Of a DNA stretch of 33,942 nt, positions 11,663-28,573 are shown one piece after another. This DNA is from Chloroflexota bacterium (lineage in GTDB: Bacteria; Chloroflexota; Dehalococcoidia; Lucifugimonadales; Lucifugimonadaceae), in assembly GCA_013204545.1 (NCBI GenBank), contig JABMNN010000062.1, positions 1 to 33,942 on the forward strand, written 5' to 3'. Both the position numbers and the translations under genes were made by a program. Below the pieces are notes generated by a model that worked only from the letters and a program-made list of their open reading frames with translations, was not told where the DNA came from and searched no databases. Numbering within the stretch: the first letter of the stretch is position 1; every line of letters begins with the position of its first letter.

Positions 11663-14600
11663 GTGTCTCAAACCAGCAAAATCGAAATACCATCTGCCCT
11701 AATTGACGCAATTAACGGGCTTGCTGATGCTGCATTTTTAGTCGCGGACGACGGCGTTATCCTCGCCGTTAATTCGGCAGCTGCCAAAATGTTTGACTAC
11801 TCAGAGAGTCAGCTTGTTGGCAGTCAAGTCGATGAGTTAATGCCATCGGCGGCGCGCGAATATCACCATGGTGTTCGAACTGGTGCTGTGGCTGATAGGC
11901 GCCCGCGACATTTTACTTCCGGTGCGACCTTCGAGTGCGAGAGGCGTGGCGGTGATCGCTTCCATGCCGACATCATGCTGTCTCCAACTGAGATCGACAG
12001 CGTTCCCATGACATGGGCGGTCGTGCGCGATCTGGATCGACCATCGCCTATGGACGAGGGGCGACGACAGGCACTCGACACACTTGATGCCATAGGGTAC
12101 ATGACCGCCTCAACCTTCGACTTGAGTAACGATTTTTCGAAAGTTGCAGACCGGATAAAAGAGATCATTCCTCATGACCGAATGTCGGTGATGTTGATCT
12201 ATGAAGAAGATCCGAAAATGGTCGAAGTAGCCTTTCTTTCAGGCGAGGTCCAATCGGGATACGAACAGGGAGCATTGGTTCCACTTGTAGATTCGGCCAC
12301 CAGTTGGGTCGTGAAATCCCGTAGCGTCACTTCTTTCACCGCCAAGAATGCCAGATTTTCGCCTCCTGGGATGCAGGCAGGGTTCAAGCAAGGTTTAATC
12401 GAAGGTTTCGGTGTTCCGTTATTTGATGGTGATGACGTAATCGGGATGTTGGGACTTGGGACGAGAAACCCGCAGGGATTTTCAGAGTTCCAACGTGGTT
12501 TGATTGAGCGTATGGCCCGCCACCTCAGCGTTGCGGTGATGAACCAGCGTATGCGGGCGAGGTTACACAGCCAATCCGATCAGCTCAAGGCTATTGGCGA
12601 GATCGCTAGAGTCGTATCTTCAACAACGGATTTGAACAGTGCTTTTACTTCGGTGAGCGCGTTGATAGCACGTCAAGTTTCTTACGACCGCCTTTCGGTT
12701 TATAGCGTGAATCTTGATCTCGGATTAATCACGGGAATATTTTCCGGTGGAGAAAAATTACCCGGTTTCGACAAGACCATCCATCAGCTACCAGATAAGG
12801 GAGTTCAATCGTTCAAAGAGTTGTTTAGCAGTGGCAAACCGACGGTGTTTGATCGCGAAGTAATTGCAAAGACGGCTGAGTCACAGGCGTCGTTCGTTCC
12901 GTATCGAGATGCTGGATACAACTGGACACTGGTCGTTCCATTGGCCGTGAGCCAGCATCCTGTCGGATTCATTGCTTTTGCCCGTAAAGCGAAAGTGGGT
13001 TTTAGTGATCGGGAAATTACGATAGCGTCGCAGATTGGAGACCAACTGGCTGGTTCCGTGTCTAATGCGTTCCAACGGAGTCGGTTGACTAAAGAGTTTG
13101 AAGTAGACGCAACCCTGATAGAAATTGGCAGAATTATTGGTTCGACACTGGATTTAAAATCTAGTAAAGACCAGCTTGGACCTCTGATTCGTAGCCTAGT
13201 CGATAGCAATTCTATGATTGTGTCGAGCATCACTGAGGATGGACGGCACTTAAGAATTAACTTTATTGACTACGCGAGTGTTGTGCATGAGTCTGATTTC
13301 TCTGAAGGGTCTGTCCATCCCATAAAAGGGACGACCGCTGAGAAAATACTCCAGACTCGTCGACCAATTATCGTCAATGTTGAGAGTGGCGCAGAGTTCA
13401 TATCGAAGTTCCCTGGTGCTGGGCCTGCGCATGCAACCGATGGACTCGTTTCAGTAATGAACATTCCACTGATTACTAACGATGCGATTTTTGGGTTCTT
13501 GACATTTCGGTCAGTAATTCCGCAGTTCTATTTAGACGCAACTGTTGAAATAGCGGAAAAAATAGGTGCTCAACTCGCGAGTTCCGTGGCCTTTTCTGAA
13601 CTACGTCTGCGCGACGTATTTCTTGAAAAAGAACGTTCAGTACTCGCATCAATTGGTGCTTTGATGGGAGCGTCAATTGACTTGTCTGAAGTGTGGAGTC
13701 AGTTCGCCGAAAAGTTAACTGAAATTCTTTCGTTTGACTATATCTCGCTTGCGAAAATCGATCGCGTCGCAGGTCAAATGGAGTCACTTTATTATTGGTG
13801 GTCAACCGAGGAACAACGTTTCGGGCGATCACCCGGAGATGTTTACTCGATTAAAGACACTTTAGCTGAGGAACTAATATCGACAAATCACGGTCTACTA
13901 TTTTCCTTTGATTCTTCAACTAGCTGGAAAAGTCGATATCCGGGTTCTCACCCGACATCAAATGACAATCCGGTGCGTTCTGTTCTAGGAATCCCGCTTG
14001 TTTGGGGAGGTGAAACGGTTGCAGTGATGTTCATTCACTCTCTGAAAGTGAACGGATTTAGCCCAATAAATCTACGTCTTGCTGAGCGAGTTGCCACCTA
14101 TCTTGCTGGCCCTGTCGCAGGCAGCATCTTACGCAGGCGAGAAGTAGAAGTGGCAACGGAAAACGAGATTCTCACCAGAATAGGATCCGTGATGGGCTCC
14201 GTTATCGATATCGATGATGCATGGCCAACCGTGATTGATCTCATTGATGAACTTGTCGAATGTCACCGAATCAACCTCGTTTCGATAAATCACTCATCTT
14301 CAAAAGCAACTGTCATCTACGACAGTTGGAACTACGGTGATTACGCCCAGTTATCTCGCCTCGGAATCACATACGATCTGACTGGGAGTTTAGCTGGTCG
14401 GGTGGTAGAGACGACCACTGGACTGATTGTCAACACCGAATCCACGAACAAGCTTCGTGAGCAATTTTCCGGCTCGTTAAACCTCGATGGAAATATATCG
14501 ACCGAATCGAATATGGGGATTCCGCTGATTTGGGGTGGAGATGTAGTCGCTGTTCTATTTATCGGTCACTTTGTAGCTGGAAATTATGATCAACAAAATC

Positions 14601-17600
14601 TACGTCTCGCCGAGCGAGTTGCCACCTATCTTGCCGGCCCTGTCGCAGGCAGCATCTTACGTAGGCGAGAAGCAGAACTGGCAAATGAAAACGAAATTCT
14701 TGCCAGAATTGGATTAGAGATGGGGGCAGCCCTCGATCTGGCCGATGCCTGGCCCGGTGTTGTCGAACTTGTGGGCAAGCTCATAAAGTTCGATCGGCTC
14801 TCTCTTGTTTCGATCGACCATGAACACGAAACGGGCACATTTATTTTCGACAGTTTGGAGCAAGACGATCCCTACGTTGAGGGATTTCTTGGAATGTCAT
14901 ATAAATTGGGCGGGACCATGACTGAAGCTCTTGTTACGAGTCGACGTGGTTTAGCAACCGGTGACGAGACATCGGATCAGCGTATTCAGAAATACCCCGG
15001 AGTGATTCACAACAGTTTAATTGAACCAGACGCGTTCCCGTCACTGCTAATGATTCCATTGATTTGGGGGGGCAAAGTTGTAGCTGTATTGTCCATTGGT
15101 GATCATGGTTTTGGTAAGTATCACGAAAGCGATTTGATCTTGGGAAACCAGATTGCTTCTCAGATCGCAGGTTCGGTGGCGGGGAACATTTTGCGAATGC
15201 AGGATGCAGAGTTCGCTTTTGAGCAAGAAATTCTTAGTAAAATTGGATCAGAAATGGGTGCTGTCATTGACCTCAATGACGCGTGGCCTACCGTTGGTGA
15301 ACTAATCGGAAATCTTATCGAGTTCGATCGAATTAACCTATCGACGATAGATCAAGAATCAGCGACAGCAACTATCGTGTTCGACAGTTGGCAGAATGAC
15401 CATCGAACTGACATGTCACGTCTTGGCGGCCACTACAGTCTTTCCGAAAGCGTAACGGGTGTTGTAGTTGAGACCGCAACCGGATTAGTCACTAATGTGG
15501 AGACGACCGAAGAACTTCTTGAAAAATATCCAGGTGCATTGACCTACGATCGAAATTTATCCTCCAAGTCGAACATATCGGTTCCATTGAAATGGGGTGG
15601 GAATGTTGTGGCTGTCCTGTTTATTGGGCACCAACAGATCGGAATCTATGACGAAAATGATCTTGCTATAGGGGTTCGGATCGCTGCGCAGATCGCTGGG
15701 TCTGTGTCGGGAAGTATCCTGCGCACCGCAGAAAATGCCATTGCACAAGAGCATGAGGTGCTAGCAAAAATCGGGACGGTAATGTCTGCAGCGCTCGAGT
15801 TGGACGCTGTCTGGGATGAATTTTCGGATTTGGTTTCAACGTTACTCGGATTCGATAGACTCTATCTAGTCTCGATTGACGAGATTACACAAACAGCAGC
15901 TGTTCTGCATGACCGCTGGTTCATCAAGCCAATCATAGAATTTTCGAGTAACGGAGAGTCCTATGACCTAAAGGGCACAGTTGCCGGACACGTGGCACAC
16001 GTCAACCTCAGCGTGGAATACTCTTTTGAATACCCCGACGAAGTTCGTGCCAAATTTCCTGGGGCATTTAATTTGTCTGTTCAGTACCCGTTTATGTCGA
16101 ATATGGCGGTTCCATTGTCTTGGGGGGGCAGGGTTGTGGCTGTGTTGTTCTTCTGTGATCTTGACAGTCGACAATACGGAGGAAAAACGGTAAAACTGGC
16201 AGAGCGAATTACTTCACAAATCGCTGGACCTGTGGCTGGAAGTCTTTTGCGAGAGCGTGAAGTAATAATTCTACGAGAAAGATCTATGCTCGTCAGGATC
16301 TTAGAATATGTGGGAGCTGCAGAATCGTTCGGTGAGGTTTTTGACGATTTCGCTAGTGATATTGGTCAATTCTTATATTTTGATGCAATTGGGTTTATAG
16401 AAATTGATCATGCCAGAAAAATCATTCAGCCATCATTGATAAATTACCGCGAGGGTGCCGAGAAGTCTTATGACACTTCTTCCACTGTAATTCCGTTAGC
16501 CGGAACTATGACCGAACAGGTTGTAAACACTTCACGTACGGTTAGTTTTAGTTACTCGGACGTGGCAGAAATCAGAGCTAAATACCCCGGTTCGACAATG
16601 ACCGGTCAAGATATACCACGATCATCTTTGACGGTGCCAATTCGATCAAGTGATCGAGTTGAGGCTTGTCTCTGGTTTAGTCGCATCGATGGAAGTGATT
16701 ACTCCAAAGATGAGATCGAGTTTGCAGAGCGAATCGCTTCTCAGATTGCTGGTCCTGTTGCTCGTACATTGATTCGTAAAAAAATCACATCACTGGCACG
16801 TGAACGAACCGGTCTAGCCAACATCGGCGAACTGATGATTGGTGCGCCAGATATCGGATCGGTATTTGCCGAGTTTTTGAGTCAGATGCGCGAGTTACTG
16901 CGGTTCGACGCGTTGACGTTCATGGAGATTAATCATGCCCGGAAAGTGGTTGAGCGCCGACACATATTTCTAGATCCTGAAGTGGATCACAAGTATGCAT
17001 TTCAACCTAGAACCTTCCAGCTAGAAGGAACGATTGCCCAGAAAGTTGCATCAACAAAAGTGGGAGTGCTGCAACGCACCGATACTAATGGGAAAACCAA
17101 AAGTAACACCAAACCTAGATCTATGACCGCTACGCCATATGTACCGCGTTCCTCGATAATGGTTCCTCTTCTTTGGGGCGATGAAGTAGTTATGACCTTG
17201 TGGGTGGCTCGCGATTCGGAAGAAATGTTCGATAGCGAAGATTTTTCACTGATGGTGAGAATCGCGTCTCAGATTGCTGGTCCCGTAGCGGGAACGGTAA
17301 TGAATCGCCGTGAACTTGACGTCGAGGATGAACGCCGCCGCAGAGAGATAGCGGAATTAAAAGTTACTGCTCTTTCTGAGCTTAGTGAGACTAAGAGTAA
17401 TTTTGTCAGTGCTATGTCACACGAGTTGCGGACACCATTGACCAGTATCGTCGCATTCGCAGATATTTTGACCAGAAATCCTCAAACTGAGTTTGCAGAC
17501 AGAGACATAAAACAGATTAAGGTTATTCAACGCAACGCACGACGGTTGGAAGGAATGATCAACGAGCTTCTGGATCTGTCGAGAATGGAATCAGGAAAAT

Positions 17601-18088
17601 TCGAAATATTCCGTGCGTCCTTCGATTTCGTATCTATGATCGCAGAATGCCTGGAAAGTGCAGAACCACAGTTCCAAGCTCTTTCGCAAACGATCCACTG
17701 CGAGATGCTTGACGAGGTATTACCCGTCAACGGAGATCGAGGACGATTACTGCAAGTGGTAAATAACTTGTTGAATAATGCGTCGAAATTTTCACCAAAG
17801 GGCACCGATATCAACCTGACTGTAATTGAATCAAACGAGTGGCTAACCGTCGAGGTCCGAGACCAAGGTCCCGGTATCTTTGAAGAGAAACCAGATCAAC
17901 TATTTGAAATGTTTTACCGCACGGACAATGAGTTGACACGCCGCGTTCCGGGAACCGGAATAGGTCTCCACATTTCGAAACGGATTGTCGATGAGCACGG
18001 TGGCGAGATTAAACTGAGCAATCGAAAAGACAGATCTGGCACGGTGGTTTCGTTCAGTATTCCCATGGTGGCTAACTTTTCTAACTAA
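11663..18088 (+). CDS. Giant soluble PAS-(GAF)x10 sensor histidine kinase
   Basis: The protein has 2141 residues, several times the usual kinase size. Domains in order: PAS (about 12-125), then by my count ten GAF domains (about 140-305, 305-475, 480-650, and seven in strict register about 176 residues apart from 655 to 1887), HisKA with phospho-acceptor H1920 in AMSHELRTPL, and HATPase_c with N-box NNLLNNASKFSP (about 2033), DQGPGIF (about 2067) and GTGIGLHIS (about 2097). Each late GAF ends in a variant of QIAGPVAGSILRRRE and restarts with EILxxIGxxMG. There is no membrane segment, receiver domain or cognate regulator nearby, so it is cytosolic and signals to a partner elsewhere. Start GTG 11663 has only a weak ribosome site. 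The ligand is unknown; GAF domains bind cyclic nucleotides, tetrapyrroles, haem or small molecules. Confidence 0.93.
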   Translation: MSQTSKIEIPSALIDAINGLADAAFLVADDGVILAVNSAAAKMFDYSESQLVGSQVDELMPSAAREYHHGVRTGAVADRRPRHFTSGATFECERRGGDRFHADIMLSPTEIDSVPMTWAVVRDLDRPSPMDEGRRQALDTLDAIGYMTASTFDLSNDFSKVADRIKEIIPHDRMSVMLIYEEDPKMVEVAFLSGEVQSGYEQGALVPLVDSATSWVVKSRSVTSFTAKNARFSPPGMQAGFKQGLIEGFGVPLFDGDDVIGMLGLGTRNPQGFSEFQRGLIERMARHLSVAVMNQRMRARLHSQSDQLKAIGEIARVVSSTTDLNSAFTSVSALIARQVSYDRLSVYSVNLDLGLITGIFSGGEKLPGFDKTIHQLPDKGVQSFKELFSSGKPTVFDREVIAKTAESQASFVPYRDAGYNWTLVVPLAVSQHPVGFIAFARKAKVGFSDREITIASQIGDQLAGSVSNAFQRSRLTKEFEVDATLIEIGRIIGSTLDLKSSKDQLGPLIRSLVDSNSMIVSSITEDGRHLRINFIDYASVVHESDFSEGSVHPIKGTTAEKILQTRRPIIVNVESGAEFISKFPGAGPAHATDGLVSVMNIPLITNDAIFGFLTFRSVIPQFYLDATVEIAEKIGAQLASSVAFSELRLRDVFLEKERSVLASIGALMGASIDLSEVWSQFAEKLTEILSFDYISLAKIDRVAGQMESLYYWWSTEEQRFGRSPGDVYSIKDTLAEELISTNHGLLFSFDSSTSWKSRYPGSHPTSNDNPVRSVLGIPLVWGGETVAVMFIHSLKVNGFSPINLRLAERVATYLAGPVAGSILRRREVEVATENEILTRIGSVMGSVIDIDDAWPTVIDLIDELVECHRINLVSINHSSSKATVIYDSWNYGDYAQLSRLGITYDLTGSLAGRVVETTTGLIVNTESTNKLREQFSGSLNLDGNISTESNMGIPLIWGGDVVAVLFIGHFVAGNYDQQNLRLAERVATYLAGPVAGSILRRREAELANENEILARIGLEMGAALDLADAWPGVVELVGKLIKFDRLSLVSIDHEHETGTFIFDSLEQDDPYVEGFLGMSYKLGGTMTEALVTSRRGLATGDETSDQRIQKYPGVIHNSLIEPDAFPSLLMIPLIWGGKVVAVLSIGDHGFGKYHESDLILGNQIASQIAGSVAGNILRMQDAEFAFEQEILSKIGSEMGAVIDLNDAWPTVGELIGNLIEFDRINLSTIDQESATATIVFDSWQNDHRTDMSRLGGHYSLSESVTGVVVETATGLVTNVETTEELLEKYPGALTYDRNLSSKSNISVPLKWGGNVVAVLFIGHQQIGIYDENDLAIGVRIAAQIAGSVSGSILRTAENAIAQEHEVLAKIGTVMSAALELDAVWDEFSDLVSTLLGFDRLYLVSIDEITQTAAVLHDRWFIKPIIEFSSNGESYDLKGTVAGHVAHVNLSVEYSFEYPDEVRAKFPGAFNLSVQYPFMSNMAVPLSWGGRVVAVLFFCDLDSRQYGGKTVKLAERITSQIAGPVAGSLLREREVIILRERSMLVRILEYVGAAESFGEVFDDFASDIGQFLYFDAIGFIEIDHARKIIQPSLINYREGAEKSYDTSSTVIPLAGTMTEQVVNTSRTVSFSYSDVAEIRAKYPGSTMTGQDIPRSSLTVPIRSSDRVEACLWFSRIDGSDYSKDEIEFAERIASQIAGPVARTLIRKKITSLARERTGLANIGELMIGAPDIGSVFAEFLSQMRELLRFDALTFMEINHARKVVERRHIFLDPEVDHKYAFQPRTFQLEGTIAQKVASTKVGVLQRTDTNGKTKSNTKPRSMTATPYVPRSSIMVPLLWGDEVVMTLWVARDSEEMFDSEDFSLMVRIASQIAGPVAGTVMNRRELDVEDERRRREIAELKVTALSELSETKSNFVSAMSHELRTPLTSIVAFADILTRNPQTEFADRDIKQIKVIQRNARRLEGMINELLDLSRMESGKFEIFRASFDFVSMIAECLESAEPQFQALSQTIHCEMLDEVLPVNGDRGRLLQVVNNLLNNASKFSPKGTDINLTVIESNEWLTVEVRDQGPGIFEEKPDQLFEMFYRTDNELTRRVPGTGIGLHISKRIVDEHGGEIKLSNRKDRSGTVVSFSIPMVANFSN
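14069..14172 (+). repeat. Internal repeat copy 1 in the kinase GAF array
   Basis: These 104 bases match 14597-14700 with about 11 differences, mostly at third codon positions. The offset is 528 bases, exactly 176 codons or one GAF unit. It covers the end of one GAF domain and the linker helix into the next. Confidence 0.8.
14597..14700 (+). repeat. Internal repeat copy 2 in the kinase GAF array
   Basis: Partner of 14069-14172 (see there). The similarity of this stretch, against much weaker DNA similarity in the rest of the two GAF units, points to a recent tandem duplication or gene conversion. Confidence 0.8.
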
Positions 18089-22476: not shown

Positions 22477-23640
22477 ATGAAAATCACAGCCATCAAACCG
22501 TATCCAGCATGGTCAGTTTGGCGGAACGTGTTCCTGGTTAAAATCGAGACTGATGAAGGAATTTACGGATGGGGCGAGGGTGGCACGTCGTGGCGTGAAC
22601 TTGGTGTGAAAGGTGTTACCGAACACCTCAGCCAATGGCTGATCGGTAAAGATCCGATGCAAGTAGGCAGGCTATGGCAGGAGATGTATCGAAGCGCCTA
22701 CTTCGAGGGTGGAAGAGTCGTAACCGCTGCAATTTCTGCAATCGATATCGCCTTGCATGACATCATCGGAAAGAAGCTCGGCGTCCCGGTGTACCAGCTT
22801 CTCGGTGGTCGACAACGTGACTACATCCAATGTTTCGCGACCACTAGTGCAAATACCGGCGAAGAAATGGTCAAAAAAGCACAAGTATTGGTCGCAGATG
22901 GTTGGGAGTGCATGCGTCTGTCTGTAACGCCCGGTGTTGATGGATACGACGCAGCAACATTCGAGCCCAGAATCGATATCGCTGAAAACGCAAAATGGCT
23001 TGTGAAAGCGCGTGAGACCCTCGGAGAAAAAGTGGTAATCGGTATTGACTATCACCATCGTCTGAGTGTTGCCGAGACTGCTTCGTTCTGCCAAAAAATG
23101 CCAGATGGCACGCTCGATTTTTTGGAAGAACCGATCCGTGATGAAAACCCTGAAGCGTACGAAGCTCTTCGAGCATTGACATCTATGCCATTCGCCATCG
23201 GCGAAGAGTTCTCCTCAAAATGGCAGTTCGCTCCATACATAGAACGTGGACTGACCAACTACGCACGAGTAGATCTAGGGATCGTTGGCGGGTTCACCGA
23301 AGCCCAAAAAGTCGCTGGTTGGGCCGAAACACACTACATAGATCTCATGCCGCACAATCCGCTTGGGCCGATCAATACTGCGGCTACTGCACATCTTGCT
23401 ATGGCTACGCCGAACTTCTCATGGCTCGAAATGTTTCAACGCTCTGAAGAAATTGAGCAACAGCACGAGCAGTTATATCCAGGGCAGTTCCGGGCTATTG
23501 GGGGTAAGATGAACGTTCCAGAAAAACCTGGATTGGGCATAGATGTCGACGAAGACACCATTGCTAATAGCCCGCTACACCCAGACAACCACATCGCAAC
23601 ACGGCTCCACCGCCGTGATGGATCTGTCACTAACTGGTAG
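22477..23640 (+). CDS. Enolase-superfamily acid-sugar dehydratase (galactonate dehydratase-like)
   Basis: The protein has 387 residues from ATG 22477, preferred over TTG 22444 because AGGTG lies about 5 nt before it and MKITAIKPY is the natural family start. It belongs to the mandelate racemase/muconate lactonising group. The active site matches the D-galactonate/mannonate dehydratase subgroup: D191 and H193 in GIDYHHR, E217 in DFLEEP, E243 in IGEEF, and H293 in MPHNPLGPI. These enzymes bind Mg2+ and dehydrate sugar acids to 2-keto-3-deoxy acids. The exact sugar cannot be told. Marine Chloroflexota of the SAR202 type carry many paralogues of this superfamily, which fits but does not prove the source. 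Confidence 0.9.
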   Translation: MKITAIKPYPAWSVWRNVFLVKIETDEGIYGWGEGGTSWRELGVKGVTEHLSQWLIGKDPMQVGRLWQEMYRSAYFEGGRVVTAAISAIDIALHDIIGKKLGVPVYQLLGGRQRDYIQCFATTSANTGEEMVKKAQVLVADGWECMRLSVTPGVDGYDAATFEPRIDIAENAKWLVKARETLGEKVVIGIDYHHRLSVAETASFCQKMPDGTLDFLEEPIRDENPEAYEALRALTSMPFAIGEEFSSKWQFAPYIERGLTNYARVDLGIVGGFTEAQKVAGWAETHYIDLMPHNPLGPINTAATAHLAMATPNFSWLEMFQRSEEIEQQHEQLYPGQFRAIGGKMNVPEKPGLGIDVDEDTIANSPLHPDNHIATRLHRRDGSVTNW

Positions 23641-23720
23641 TCCAGGCTCGCTTGGTGCTTAGAGTGTTCATCTAATTCAATCGAGCGAGTGGCAAGTCCA
23701 TATATTTGCTCTAAATCGTA

Positions 23721-23966
23721 CTAACTGACTTCAATATCAGTGACGTGTGGAGCATGGATGCCTAATGAGGCGGTAAGGAATTGGACGACCATATCGAGTG
23801 ATGGAACGCACTCTGGGCATTCTTCGTTCACCCCGGGTGTGTATTGAACTTTTAAACTATTGCCGATGAGAATGGCAGTACCCAGCGTTCCACCTTCAGA
23901 CGCAACAATTGTCTGAATCTGCGCAAGTACGAAGTCCACGCTTGAATCTGAAGCACTTTGAACCAA
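23721..23966 (-). CDS. NifU-like C-terminal domain protein with CPEC motif
   Basis: A short protein of up to 81 residues that resembles the NifU/Nfu iron-sulfur scaffold domain: an N-terminal helix (DFVLAQIQTIVASEGG), a beta strand (SLKVQYTP), the Cys pair C50-P-E-C53, a second helix and a final VTDIEV strand. In true Nfu proteins the motif is usually CxGCP-like and the proteins transfer Fe-S clusters. The match here is by pattern only. The start (TTG 23966) is uncertain: the frame is open upstream for about 25 codons without ATG, and GTG at 23939 is possible. It follows the Sec-glutaredoxin gene by 80 bases on the same strand. Confidence 0.6.
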   Translation of the reverse strand: MVQSASDSSVDFVLAQIQTIVASEGGTLGTAILIGNSLKVQYTPGVNEECPECVPSLDMVVQFLTASLGIHAPHVTDIEVS

Positions 23967-24046
23967 TTGTCTGAAATCTTTCTGGCGGAAAGCTGAACTA
24001 AAACACTCGAACCGTGTAGGTCTATATATACATTTTCAGTTGCTAC

Positions 24047-24289
24047 TTACCCGTTTTCGAACGAAGCAAGTGCATCGTCAATCTCTTTTACATCAAATCC
24101 AACTAGTTGACGATCACCGATTACTGTCACCGGTGTCGAATCGAACCCCATAGTTAGCAATTCAGTGCGCCCTTCCATATCGACCGATACGTTTTTATCG
24201 ACAAACTCGATACCACGAAGTGAAAGGTACCCCTTCACCATTTCGCAGGTTCCTCAGATATTCGATGAATAGACAGTTATCGGTGACAT
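24047..24289 (-). CDS. Glutaredoxin-like selenoprotein with UGTC active site (in-frame UGA at 24254-24256)
   Basis: Reading from ATG 24289 gives an 80-residue glutaredoxin/NrdH-like protein if the TGA at codon 12 is read through. The N-terminus is MSPITVYSSNI, then UGA, then GTCEMVKGYLSLRGIEF. The UGA occupies the first Cys of the thioredoxin-fold CxxC active site, giving U12-G-T-C15. The rest is a complete fold: strand VDKNVSVD, helix RTELLTMGF, the cis-Pro motif STPVTVIG, and GFDVKEIDDAL. UGA serves as a normal stop in rnhB, thiL and the amidase, so Trp recoding is unlikely. A SECIS-like hairpin lies directly downstream (24213-24248). The gene begins 12 bases after the SDR stop, inside an apparent operon. 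A frame starting at ATG 24241 would lack the active site. Alternative: a nonsense mutation or sequencing error (TGC to TGA). Confidence 0.75.
24213..24248 (-). promoter_or_regulatory. Candidate bacterial SECIS element
   Basis: Downstream of the UGA, the minus-strand RNA GUGAAGGGGUACCUUUCAC (24238-24220) folds into a hairpin: GUGAA pairs with UUCAC, GG with CC, leaving one bulged U and a GGUA apical loop (24231-24228). Below it, after a 3-nt AUG bulge, CUGCGAA (24248-24242) pairs with UUCGUGG (24219-24213) with two G-U pairs. The first loop G is 23 nt after the UGA, inside the 16-37 nt range known for bacterial SECIS elements; the fdhF element of E. coli likewise has a GGUC loop and a bulged U. 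The pairing is seen directly; SelB recognition is inferred. Confidence 0.62.
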
Positions 24290-24301
24290 GTTTACGGTTT
24301 A

Positions 24302-25081
24302 TTACCTAACGCCGTCTTGCGGTGCGTAACCGAGAACATCCTTGGCGTGCGCATTATCGCGGAACAGCTTTCGATTATTAGATGTCGCCCAGAAAATATC
24401 GAACTTCAGATCAGCAGGAGCCTCGATGATTTTGATGGTCAGCTGTTGAAGATCACGATGACTCGACCAATTTGCCTGCCCGCGGCCAGGTCCGGCCTTA
24501 TCGATCGGTCCACAGCTGCTAATACGAAGATTTATAACTGAAAGATCGGTCGTGAGTGCGTAATATCTTCCGATGTCTTCACCGAAAAGCTTGGTGACAC
24601 CGTAGAGACTTATGGGCTTCGGTTCGGAGAACTCGTTGACCATCTCCCACGATTCTGGGATTTCAACATCTTCGGTCGCTACGAGGCTTTTGTATGGTTC
24701 TTCCAACTCGTAACCATTGGATGTGGCACCTGAACTTGCGAGAATCACCCGAGATATGCCGGCTTGCTTGGCTACCTCAAGAACGTTGTAGGCTCCGATG
24801 ATGTTATTGTTCAACATAGAATCCCAACCGGCGTTCATTCCCGCATCGCTACCAAGCCCACCGTCAGCGGCAAGATTGAGTACAACATCGATGCCTTCAA
24901 AAGCTGGACGTAGGGAGTCGATATCGGCGATATTTGCCTTGAACACGCGTTCAGCCGGTAGCCCATCCACGCCGCTTCGTGAGAGCGCACTAATCGTGTA
25001 TCGCTCTTCCAATACTGGGCGAAGAACCTGTCCGACGACTCCGTTCAGGCCCGTGATGAGGACTTTCAGTTTTTCTGACAA
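24302..25081 (-). CDS. NAD-dependent epimerase/dehydratase family protein (uronate dehydrogenase-like)
   Basis: This 259-residue protein is an extended short-chain dehydrogenase. It shows the NAD-binding GLNGVVG motif at residues 11-17, NLAAD, the Ser of LASSGATSNG and the catalytic pair in YGVTK. The overall shape resembles uronate dehydrogenases, which oxidise uronic acids to aldaro-lactones, but a sugar epimerase or reductase cannot be excluded. The start is TTG at 25081 with GGAG spaced 8 nt. It lies 47 bases downstream of the diacylglycerol kinase gene and 12 bases upstream of the Sec-glutaredoxin gene, so the three are likely co-transcribed. With the acid-sugar dehydratase nearby, a uronate or aldonate route is a reasonable guess. 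Confidence 0.82.
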   Translation of the reverse strand: MSEKLKVLITGLNGVVGQVLRPVLEERYTISALSRSGVDGLPAERVFKANIADIDSLRPAFEGIDVVLNLAADGGLGSDAGMNAGWDSMLNNNIIGAYNVLEVAKQAGISRVILASSGATSNGYELEEPYKSLVATEDVEIPESWEMVNEFSEPKPISLYGVTKLFGEDIGRYYALTTDLSVINLRISSCGPIDKAGPGRGQANWSSHRDLQQLTIKIIEAPADLKFDIFWATSNNRKLFRDNAHAKDVLGYAPQDGVR

Positions 25082-25128
25082 ATATAGATCTCCGTTGAAA
25101 TGTGAAGCATTGTTGTAGTTTCAGTGGA

Positions 25129-25491
25129 TTAGACGAGGATTATTAGCCAGATAACTGCTGCCGAAATGAGCGACACGAATACTGCCGCTGAACCTAAATC
25201 TTTGGCTTTTTTCGATAATGGGTGCAGTTCGGTTCCGACTCTGTCGATGGTTGCTTCGATAGCAGAGTTCATAAGTTCGACAATTAACACTGCGGCGAGC
25301 GACCCGACCAGAATTGCACGTTCGACATTGATGTCGGTAAGGATAAATGCTGCGATTGAACCGACGATCAAGAGAACAAGTTCTTGTTGGAAAGCGCGCT
25401 CTGATTTCGTTGCCCGAGTTAGGCCGCTAAACGAATTTTTGAGTGCGTTGGTGAGGAGTAATGGATTGAAGATGCTTATGAGGTGATTCAC
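25129..25491 (-). CDS. dgkA: Diacylglycerol kinase / undecaprenol kinase (DgkA family)
   Basis: This 120-residue membrane enzyme phosphorylates diacylglycerol or undecaprenol with ATP. The family signature NSAIEATIDRVGTELHPLSKKAKDLGSAAV is complete, with catalytic Glu E79 and metal-site Glu E31 (SERAFQQE). Three membrane helices are visible, near residues 38-52, 58-75 and 101-120. The length is that of the E. coli enzyme. The start is GTG at 25491 with no strong ribosome site. First gene of the minus-strand group running to 23721. The E. coli-type and Gram-positive-type (undecaprenol) substrates cannot be separated by eye. Confidence 0.93.
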   Translation of the reverse strand: MNHLISIFNPLLLTNALKNSFSGLTRATKSERAFQQELVLLIVGSIAAFILTDINVERAILVGSLAAVLIVELMNSAIEATIDRVGTELHPLSKKAKDLGSAAVFVSLISAAVIWLIILV

Positions 25492-27181: not shown

Positions 27182-28573
27182 TCAAACTGGAGGGTGAAGA
27201 TTGTGGAAATCGGTAGCTCGCTCAAATGCATCACCAATTCCAACGAGCAATGGCTCGGAGAGATGATGACCCGAGAACTGAAGTGAAACCGGCATGCCGT
27301 TGTTGTCGAGTCCGCAGGGCAGGGCGATAGTTGGTAGACCCGAGAAATCAAACGGAACTGTAAACCGGCTATCCCAAGGCTTTCTATTCGTCGGAATCGG
27401 CCCGTAGAGCAATTCAGGGGTTACGGGGTACGACGCTTTCGGCGTTGATGGACCTGCTAAAACATCAATACTCCGCATGGTATTTCTTAGCTCCCCATTC
27501 ATTGCCAATCGTAATTTGTGGGCATTAGCGTATTCAGTAGCCGTGTGAGAATTGCCGTTTTCAAGCCATTGACGAAAAAAAGGACCGTACTGATCAGACC
27601 GAGAAGGGTATGTATCGGCGTGAGCGATAGCTGCCTCGCTCGAGCATATGATCGGCCAAGCGGTCATCGCCTCTCCCATGATCGGAGGCATTGTTACCGG
27701 AACAATTACGGCCCCAAGGGCTTTCATCACTCTTACCCCAGCTTCGACGGCTCTCGCGAATGATGGCTCCATGTCCGACGTCGAGTATTCTTCGTCCCAG
27801 CCGATTTTTAGGCCTTTCACACTCATTCCGATTTTTGAAAGCATGTCTGGAACGTTGTGGGATAGCGTCGTTGAGTCTTTAGGGTCGAGACCTGAAATGG
27901 CCTGGAGGACAATACCGGCATCGGCTGCTGATCTGGTTAACGGTCCTACGTGGTCGAGCGATGCCGCCAAATCCATCACCCCATACCGAGAAACGCGGCC
28001 CCATGTAGGTTTCAGCCCCACGGTTCCGCACACCGCCGCGGGATGTCTGATAGATCCTCCTGTGTCGCTACCGAGTGTTCCATATGCCAGTCCCGCCGCA
28101 GTAGCAGAACCAGATCCGCTGGAAGAAGCACCTGCCCAATACGAAGGACGCCACGGATTCTCCGGAACCTGAAGTTCAGGGTTGTAACCTCCCATAGCAC
28201 CTTCCGTCATATTCAGTTTACCCAGCAACACTGCGCCAGCATTGCGAAGGTTCACGACCACTGTGGCGTCGTGGTCTGGCACGTTATCCGCGAACACTGC
28301 CGACCCACCCATGGTGCGAATACCGGCGGTGTTGCACAGATCTTTTACCGCAATGGGTATGCCGTGAAGTTTTCCTCGATACTTGCCCTTTGCGATTTCA
28401 CTTTCGGCGAGCCTAGCCTGTTCAAGGGCAAGTTCAGTAGTGACGGTTGCGTATGATTTCAGAGTGCCGTCTAGAAGGTCGATTCTAGCGAGTTGGGATT
28501 GAGCAAGATCGACCGGCGATAGATCACCGGATTCGATCAGTGGAGCTAGTTCAGAAATCGTTTTGTAATGCAT
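27182..28573 (-). CDS. Amidase signature family hydrolase (GatA-like fold)
   Basis: The protein has 463 residues and carries the amidase signature triad: K77 in GIPIAVKDLC, the cis-Ser within GASSSGSGSA (about 152), and the nucleophile S174 in GSDTGGSIRHPA. Family members hydrolyse amides or carbamates; some serve as GatA in Glu/Asp-tRNA amidation. No gatC or gatB is adjacent and the neighbours are catabolic, so a degradative amidase is more likely. The stop overlaps the first possible start of the SDR gene, suggesting that the two proteins act on one substrate. The start is ATG at 28573 without a visible ribosome site. Confidence 0.92.
   Translation of the reverse strand: MHYKTISELAPLIESGDLSPVDLAQSQLARIDLLDGTLKSYATVTTELALEQARLAESEIAKGKYRGKLHGIPIAVKDLCNTAGIRTMGGSAVFADNVPDHDATVVVNLRNAGAVLLGKLNMTEGAMGGYNPELQVPENPWRPSYWAGASSSGSGSATAAGLAYGTLGSDTGGSIRHPAAVCGTVGLKPTWGRVSRYGVMDLAASLDHVGPLTRSAADAGIVLQAISGLDPKDSTTLSHNVPDMLSKIGMSVKGLKIGWDEEYSTSDMEPSFARAVEAGVRVMKALGAVIVPVTMPPIMGEAMTAWPIICSSEAAIAHADTYPSRSDQYGPFFRQWLENGNSHTATEYANAHKLRLAMNGELRNTMRSIDVLAGPSTPKASYPVTPELLYGPIPTNRKPWDSRFTVPFDFSGLPTIALPCGLDNNGMPVSLQFSGHHLSEPLLVGIGDAFERATDFHNLHPPV

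Follow-up and report, generated by a model that had tools for sequence, protein, structure and literature searches.

On the minus strand of a 33,942-nucleotide contig from a Chloroflexota bacterium (JABMNN010000062.1, called here the window), a short frame beginning at 24241 can be extended upstream into the N-terminus of a glutaredoxin, if a UGA codon at the place of the first active-site cysteine is read through. The question raised by this locus is whether that UGA ends a broken gene or is read as selenocysteine (Sec). A preliminary description had placed the gene at 24047..24289; these coordinates are correct, and the strand, which had been left unstated, is minus. The gene starts with an ATG at 24289, ends with a TAA at 24049-24047 and codes for 80 residues reading MSPITVYSSNI-U-GTCEMVKGYLSLRGIEFVDKNV..., with a single in-frame UGA. 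More specifically, the UGA is codon 12 (24254..24256, minus strand), predicted to be read as Sec and to form the first residue of a UGTC active site, while the TGC codon 15 (24245..24247, minus strand) would provide its resolving cysteine. The earlier translation, MSPITVYSSNI-UGA-GTCEMVKGYLS, was recovered in full, and the short frame at 24241 corresponds to Met17 of the glutaredoxin frame. The gene is absent from the mechanical listing of open reading frames (ORFs) of at least 80 residues.

With Cys substituted at the UGA position, the Pfam model Glutaredoxin (PF00462) matches residues 4-60 and spans the UGA (E 5.6e-9; 36.5 bits, above the gathering cut-off of 22.9). An open frame past a TGA is by itself not rare: in Markov-simulated sequence, 68 or more open codons come after 5.5% of TGA triplets. 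It is the homology to either side of the UGA that goes beyond chance. A filtered scan of the window found 11 other single-UGA read-through frames of at least 60 codons outside the main ORFs, and none of the 10 that were scanned matched Pfam at 0.01. The Pfam scan of the window ORFs gave matches for 8 of 10. Consistent with a glutaredoxin, a profile search of solved structures placed glutaredoxin 7c10 first (E 3.8e-22), and Foldseek returned the dithiol glutaredoxin cGrx1 as its first match; the model used in that search is weak (pLDDT 62.6), so the fold matches count only as agreement with the sequence result.

UGA and Cys at codon 12 of related glutaredoxins

A protein search of the 76 genomes of the family found a match in 40 at E ≤0.001, some of them weak. 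Ordinary gene calling cuts or misses such a gene, yet glutaredoxin copies with exactly one TGA, 23 in total, are present in 22 of the 76 genomes. The TGA lies at codon 12 in all 20 of the one-TGA copies that were fetched; three others, namely the second copies of genomes G008 and G039 and the copy of G033, are outside the fetched set. At the level of the class, a profile search gave matches at E ≤1e-8 in 144 of 393 genomes, and many among the matches listed carry one TGA, the place of which was checked in the fetched loci.

Close orthologues from the same family have TGC or TGT at exactly codon 12. The preliminary description had asked whether relatives carry Cys or UGA at this codon, and computation shows both: among the 44 distinct proteins compared, codon 12 is UGA in 27 (13 of them distinct close copies and 14 more distant ones) and TGC or TGT in 17. 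This count, and the tree described below, are without loci L080-L085, two of which have UGA. Genome G056 carries both forms on different contigs (L029 with UGA, L058 with Cys). In a 27-row alignment, Ser7, Asn8 and position 10, which is U or Cys, are invariant (alignment numbering). Since close orthologues have Sec or Cys at one site, they form natural pairs in which the reason for keeping Sec can be studied.

A tree built without alignment columns 10-24 gives 6 Sec/Cys state changes (bootstrap 6-9), at least 2 of them forced by the starred branches; since it rests on 60 columns and has many open forks, the figure of 6 is rough and says nothing on the direction of Sec/Cys change. Among the 13 close UGA copies, the motif letters are UGSC in 11 and UGTC in the other two, the window copy and L044. 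Three distant glutaredoxins, L075, L082 and L084, read UAPC, UPYC and UAFC, respectively, with a same-register hairpin and a GUU loop, and their sequences suggest that the class may hold several Sec-glutaredoxin subfamilies. Among phages, 31 records match the glutaredoxin, all with less than 60% identity, and two of the best 5 of the 31 are annotated as glutaredoxin-like.

The hairpin downstream of the UGA

A bacterial SECIS (bSECIS) hairpin is predicted at 24219..24239 on the minus strand, with a 9-bp stem (24239-24231 with 24227-24219) and a GUA loop. The rules listed for such elements are a loop of 3-9 nt, a stem of 4-16 bp, a distance of 16-37 nt from the UGA, a G at loop position 1 or 2 and an energy of ≤-7.5 kcal/mol (PMC13188914). 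The window hairpin (L028), with its 9 bp, 23 nt from UGA to loop and -9.8 kcal/mol, agrees with all of them. All 13 distinct close UGA copies pass the same rules; 12 of them have 9 bp, and L027 has 8 bp with a loop of 5 nt. Among Cys copies, 1 of 12 orthologues and none of 9 further ones pass, and when the close UGA copies are recoded synonymously, 1.9% of the versions do. None of the 13 distant and 3 further UGA copies passes, all being short of -7.5 kcal/mol as lone hairpins. A same-register hairpin of 7 or 8 bp is nevertheless found in 15 of these 16 rule-failing copies, L056 being the exception, and a 7-bp stem is kept in 12 of the 13 distant ones. The rule test includes L070, L071, L072, L075 and L080-L085.

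Pairing at the stem site differs between the two sets. Pairing with the stretch that finishes at +37 extends to all 9 positions counted from +17 of the UGA in each of the 13 close UGA copies, but to 4-6 of the 9 in the 12 Cys orthologues. Over all stem cells, 89.8% are paired in 24 distinct UGA sequences versus 51.3% in 21 Cys sequences, and slid versions of the stem reach at most 66% in the UGA set. Two-sided changes were seen at 4 pairs in the UGA set, a number reached by none of 500 shuffles, but the Cys set has them at 5 pairs. Sliding the UGA set by -1 raised the covariation score slightly above that of the unslid stem (0.143 versus 0.129) and gave more two-sided cells (9 versus 6). It is therefore the percentage paired, and not the count of two-sided changes, that separates the UGA from the Cys sequences.

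The codons that form the hairpin are also constrained. In the close UGA copies the synonymous difference is 0.221 at codons +6 to +12 versus 0.555 elsewhere, the lowest window of 7 codons having 0.169, while in the Cys copies it is 0.647 versus 0.621. The 10 distant UGA copies gave 0.121 at the stem codons versus 0.365, with another window as low (0.086). Folding of 33 nt against synonymous recodings gave a mean z of -2.89 for UGA copies (n=23) versus -1.45 for Cys copies (n=12); as the Cys copies also fold better than their recodings, this energy test is not specific. Both the synonymous and the 33-nt folding tests were made without L070, L071 and L075, and the synonymous test also without L072, which contains N. 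For the window, the 53 nt from the UGA fold with a z of -2.43, and 4 of 200 shuffles were as good. An Rfam search over 23600-25200 gave no match. The SECIS element that the preliminary description had proposed to look for is thus matched by a SECIS-like hairpin, the codons of which are constrained in the close UGA copies.

Selenocysteine machinery and other readings of the UGA

The genome is a 2.95-Mb draft of 134 contigs, 92% complete, in which the window is contig 49. The preliminary description had supposed that the cell has the Sec machinery elsewhere, and indeed this genome contains a tRNA-Sec with a UCA anticodon (65 bits; classed as tRNA-Sec by both ARAGORN and Infernal) together with selA (518 bits, cut-off 268), selB (best stretch 315 bits, or 338 with its in-frame neighbour, cut-off 242) and selD (374 bits, cut-off 125). 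The selD gene (L021, G000:C91:10344-11270) has an in-frame TGA of its own, reading SCAGUAGK, and SelD is thus itself a second candidate selenoprotein. Across the family, selB is above its cut-off in 21 of the 22 genomes with a UGA glutaredoxin and in 55 of all 76; the remaining one of the 22, G038, has only a 154-bit stretch, starting at base 2 of its contig. A tRNA-Sec match of at least 65 bits is present in 19 of the 22 and was not found in G058, G055 and G032, perhaps because these genomes are incomplete. The use of Sec in the phylum is not new, as Sec-containing formate dehydrogenases are reported for deep-sea Chloroflexi (PMC5736913).

These observations bear on other explanations of the locus. 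The UGA could be a true stop, or a miscalled TGC or TGT from which it differs by one base in a draft of 134 contigs, so that the gene would be dead or ordinary. Such a pseudogene or assembly error is at odds with the presence of UGA at the same codon in the 13 close and 14 more distant proteins among the 44 compared, on which ground it was rejected, and with the synonymous constraint on the hairpin codons in the close UGA copies but not in the Cys copies. Frame decay in the relatives, named by the preliminary description as a finding that would refute the Sec reading, is not what they show, their frames being intact downstream of the UGA. We regard this explanation as exceedingly improbable. 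The same is true of a truncated protein made only from Met17, with the upstream part arising by chance: an in-frame ATG does exist at 24241, but the Pfam match already begins at residue 4, on which ground this start was rejected, the invariant Ser7, Asn8 and position 10 argue against it, and the Cys relatives share the N-terminus free of stops. Such a truncation is hardly credible.

Another possibility is that the UGA is decoded as a different amino acid, either through a genome-wide reassignment to Trp or through a Cys-type tRNA reading UGA, and the occurrence of Cys at this site in relatives would fit the latter. As the preliminary description had noted, UGA serves as a stop in other genes here: it ends 4 of the 25 window ORFs taken as genes, among them a Pfam-matched amidase at 27182-28573, and UGA as Trp was rejected on account of these stops. 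Moreover, the UCA tRNA that was found is a tRNA-Sec according to both programs, and selA, selB, selD and the SECIS-like hairpin are all present. Decoding as another amino acid is therefore very unlikely.

We conclude that the glutaredoxin gene, in spite of its apparent stop, is almost certainly intact, its UGA being very probably read as Sec. To the extent that sequence can tell, the preliminary description is supported both in what it observed and in its Sec reading. The locus very probably encodes an 80-residue, Sec-containing glutaredoxin of the dithiol type (UGTC), with SECIS- and SelB-directed insertion of Sec12 and a predicted role as a thiol-disulfide oxidoreductase. We infer the following course of insertion and catalysis. 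SelB with Sec-tRNA-Sec(UCA) would insert Sec at codon 12, directed by the 21-nt SECIS hairpin that starts 14 nt past the UGA. Sec12 would then attack a substrate disulfide or an oxidised thiol. The selenenyl-sulfide would be resolved by Cys15, and the glutaredoxin would be regenerated by a reductant of the cell, either glutathione or an enzyme resembling thioredoxin reductase. The genome has PF02955 matches, which are not specific as archaeal control genomes match too, and thioredoxin-reductase-like frames of up to 278 bits, below the cut-off of 343.

Known families and neighbouring genes

The kind of protein is already known. Glutaredoxin (UxxC) is listed as a selenoprotein family in the table of a 2026 review (PMC13188914), and cGrx1 of Clostridium oremlandii (PDB 7c10/7c12/7c13) is reported to contain a catalytic Sec natively and is proposed as the reductant of cMsrA (PMC7642778). 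An earlier count from 2006 gives 3 Grx selenoproteins with 3 Cys-to-Sec events (PMC1794560), and for aquatic GOS samples the reported numbers of UxxC selenoproteins are 2 for Grx and 42 for Grx-like (PMC2398784). Like cGrx1, the window protein is small and has a predicted Sec first in UxxC; the motif of cGrx1 is U(or C)PxC, whereas that of the window protein is UGTC. They differ also in the partner, since cGrx1 is proposed to act with a selenoprotein MsrA (PMC7642778) and the single MsrA match of the present genome has no internal stop; MsrA as a Sec partner gained no support here. With the Grx families of the GOS samples and the review table the window protein has PF00462 and UxxC in common, and these may already include its subfamily. 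On sequence comparison, the gene is well supported as a further example of a Sec-glutaredoxin, a type already described.

Against the NCBIfam models, the window protein stays below the cut-offs of all 14 that match at E ≤1. The best matches are YruB (TIGR02196; 60.8 bits, cut-off 88.55) and NrdH (TIGR02194; 49 bits, cut-off 85.75). The UXX-star (seleno)proteins are likewise small, glutaredoxin-like and known in a Sec form, but differ from the window protein, in which the fourth motif residue is Cys, and their cut-offs were not reached (NF041212, 31.9 of 66 bits; NF041211, 27.6 of 100; NF047338, 19.5 of 97). The UGSC selenoprotein family NF041046 is not among the 14. An identity as UXX-star, YruB or NrdH was thus rejected on the cut-offs and one as UGSC for want of a match, and we read the window protein as a putative Sec-glutaredoxin subfamily without a model of its own in that NCBIfam release. 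Within the titles and abstract openings of the open-licence literature, among the matches listed, no Sec-glutaredoxin is described for this lineage. With this gene, a Chloroflexota lineage represented here by its genomes gains a probable redox selenoprotein.

Upstream lies a gene for an NAD-dependent epimerase/dehydratase of the extended SDR type (24302..25081, minus strand), its end separated by 12 nt from the start codon of the glutaredoxin. The preliminary description had placed the two in an operon; the neighbour is indeed present and conserved within the genus, where it adjoins the glutaredoxin in 11 of the 12 genomes having such a glutaredoxin (the exceptions are G055 and the second copy of G056), but it was not seen in other genera within the available flanks. 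Downstream, at 23721..23966 on the minus strand, an 81-aa protein with a TTG start and a CPEC motif is encoded 80 nt from the glutaredoxin, probably a divergent NifU-C/Nfu-like domain. Of 25 distinct close loci, 23 have this gene next to the glutaredoxin, comprising all 13 with UGA and 10 of 12 with Cys, one of the Cys loci being cut by a contig end. The NifU-like neighbour is therefore conserved more widely than the SDR neighbour, and is a less expected feature of the locus.

The CPEC motif of this protein is invariant. PF01106 at E ≤10 matches 15 of 22 family members, with 1.2e-5 as the best value and weak matches for most; the window member lacks any Pfam match, PF01106 included. The family profile finds NifU-like protein 2 (PDB 2z51; E 3.8e-4), and a model of the protein (pLDDT 82) has NifU/NFU domains at ranks 1-4 of a fold search (best E 1.0e-3), so that the neighbour is probably a NifU C-terminal/Nfu-like protein. 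It provides a testable lead on the function of the glutaredoxin. One possibility, which we judge doubtful, is that in this Chloroflexota family the Sec-glutaredoxin and its CPEC neighbour work as a dedicated module, in which the selenol would reduce, repair or load a CxxC (possibly Fe-S-carrying) site of the Nfu-like protein; selenium would then act in Fe-S cluster carriage. Against such a module, the Nfu-like protein occurs in 44 of the 76 family genomes, some without this glutaredoxin, so that the link is not exclusive, and none of the distant UGA loci (L052-L057, L066-L073) has an Nfu-like neighbour within the available flanks. Elsewhere in the window, 11663-18088 of the plus strand encodes a 2141-aa protein with a PAS domain, about ten GAF stretches and a histidine-kinase C-terminus.
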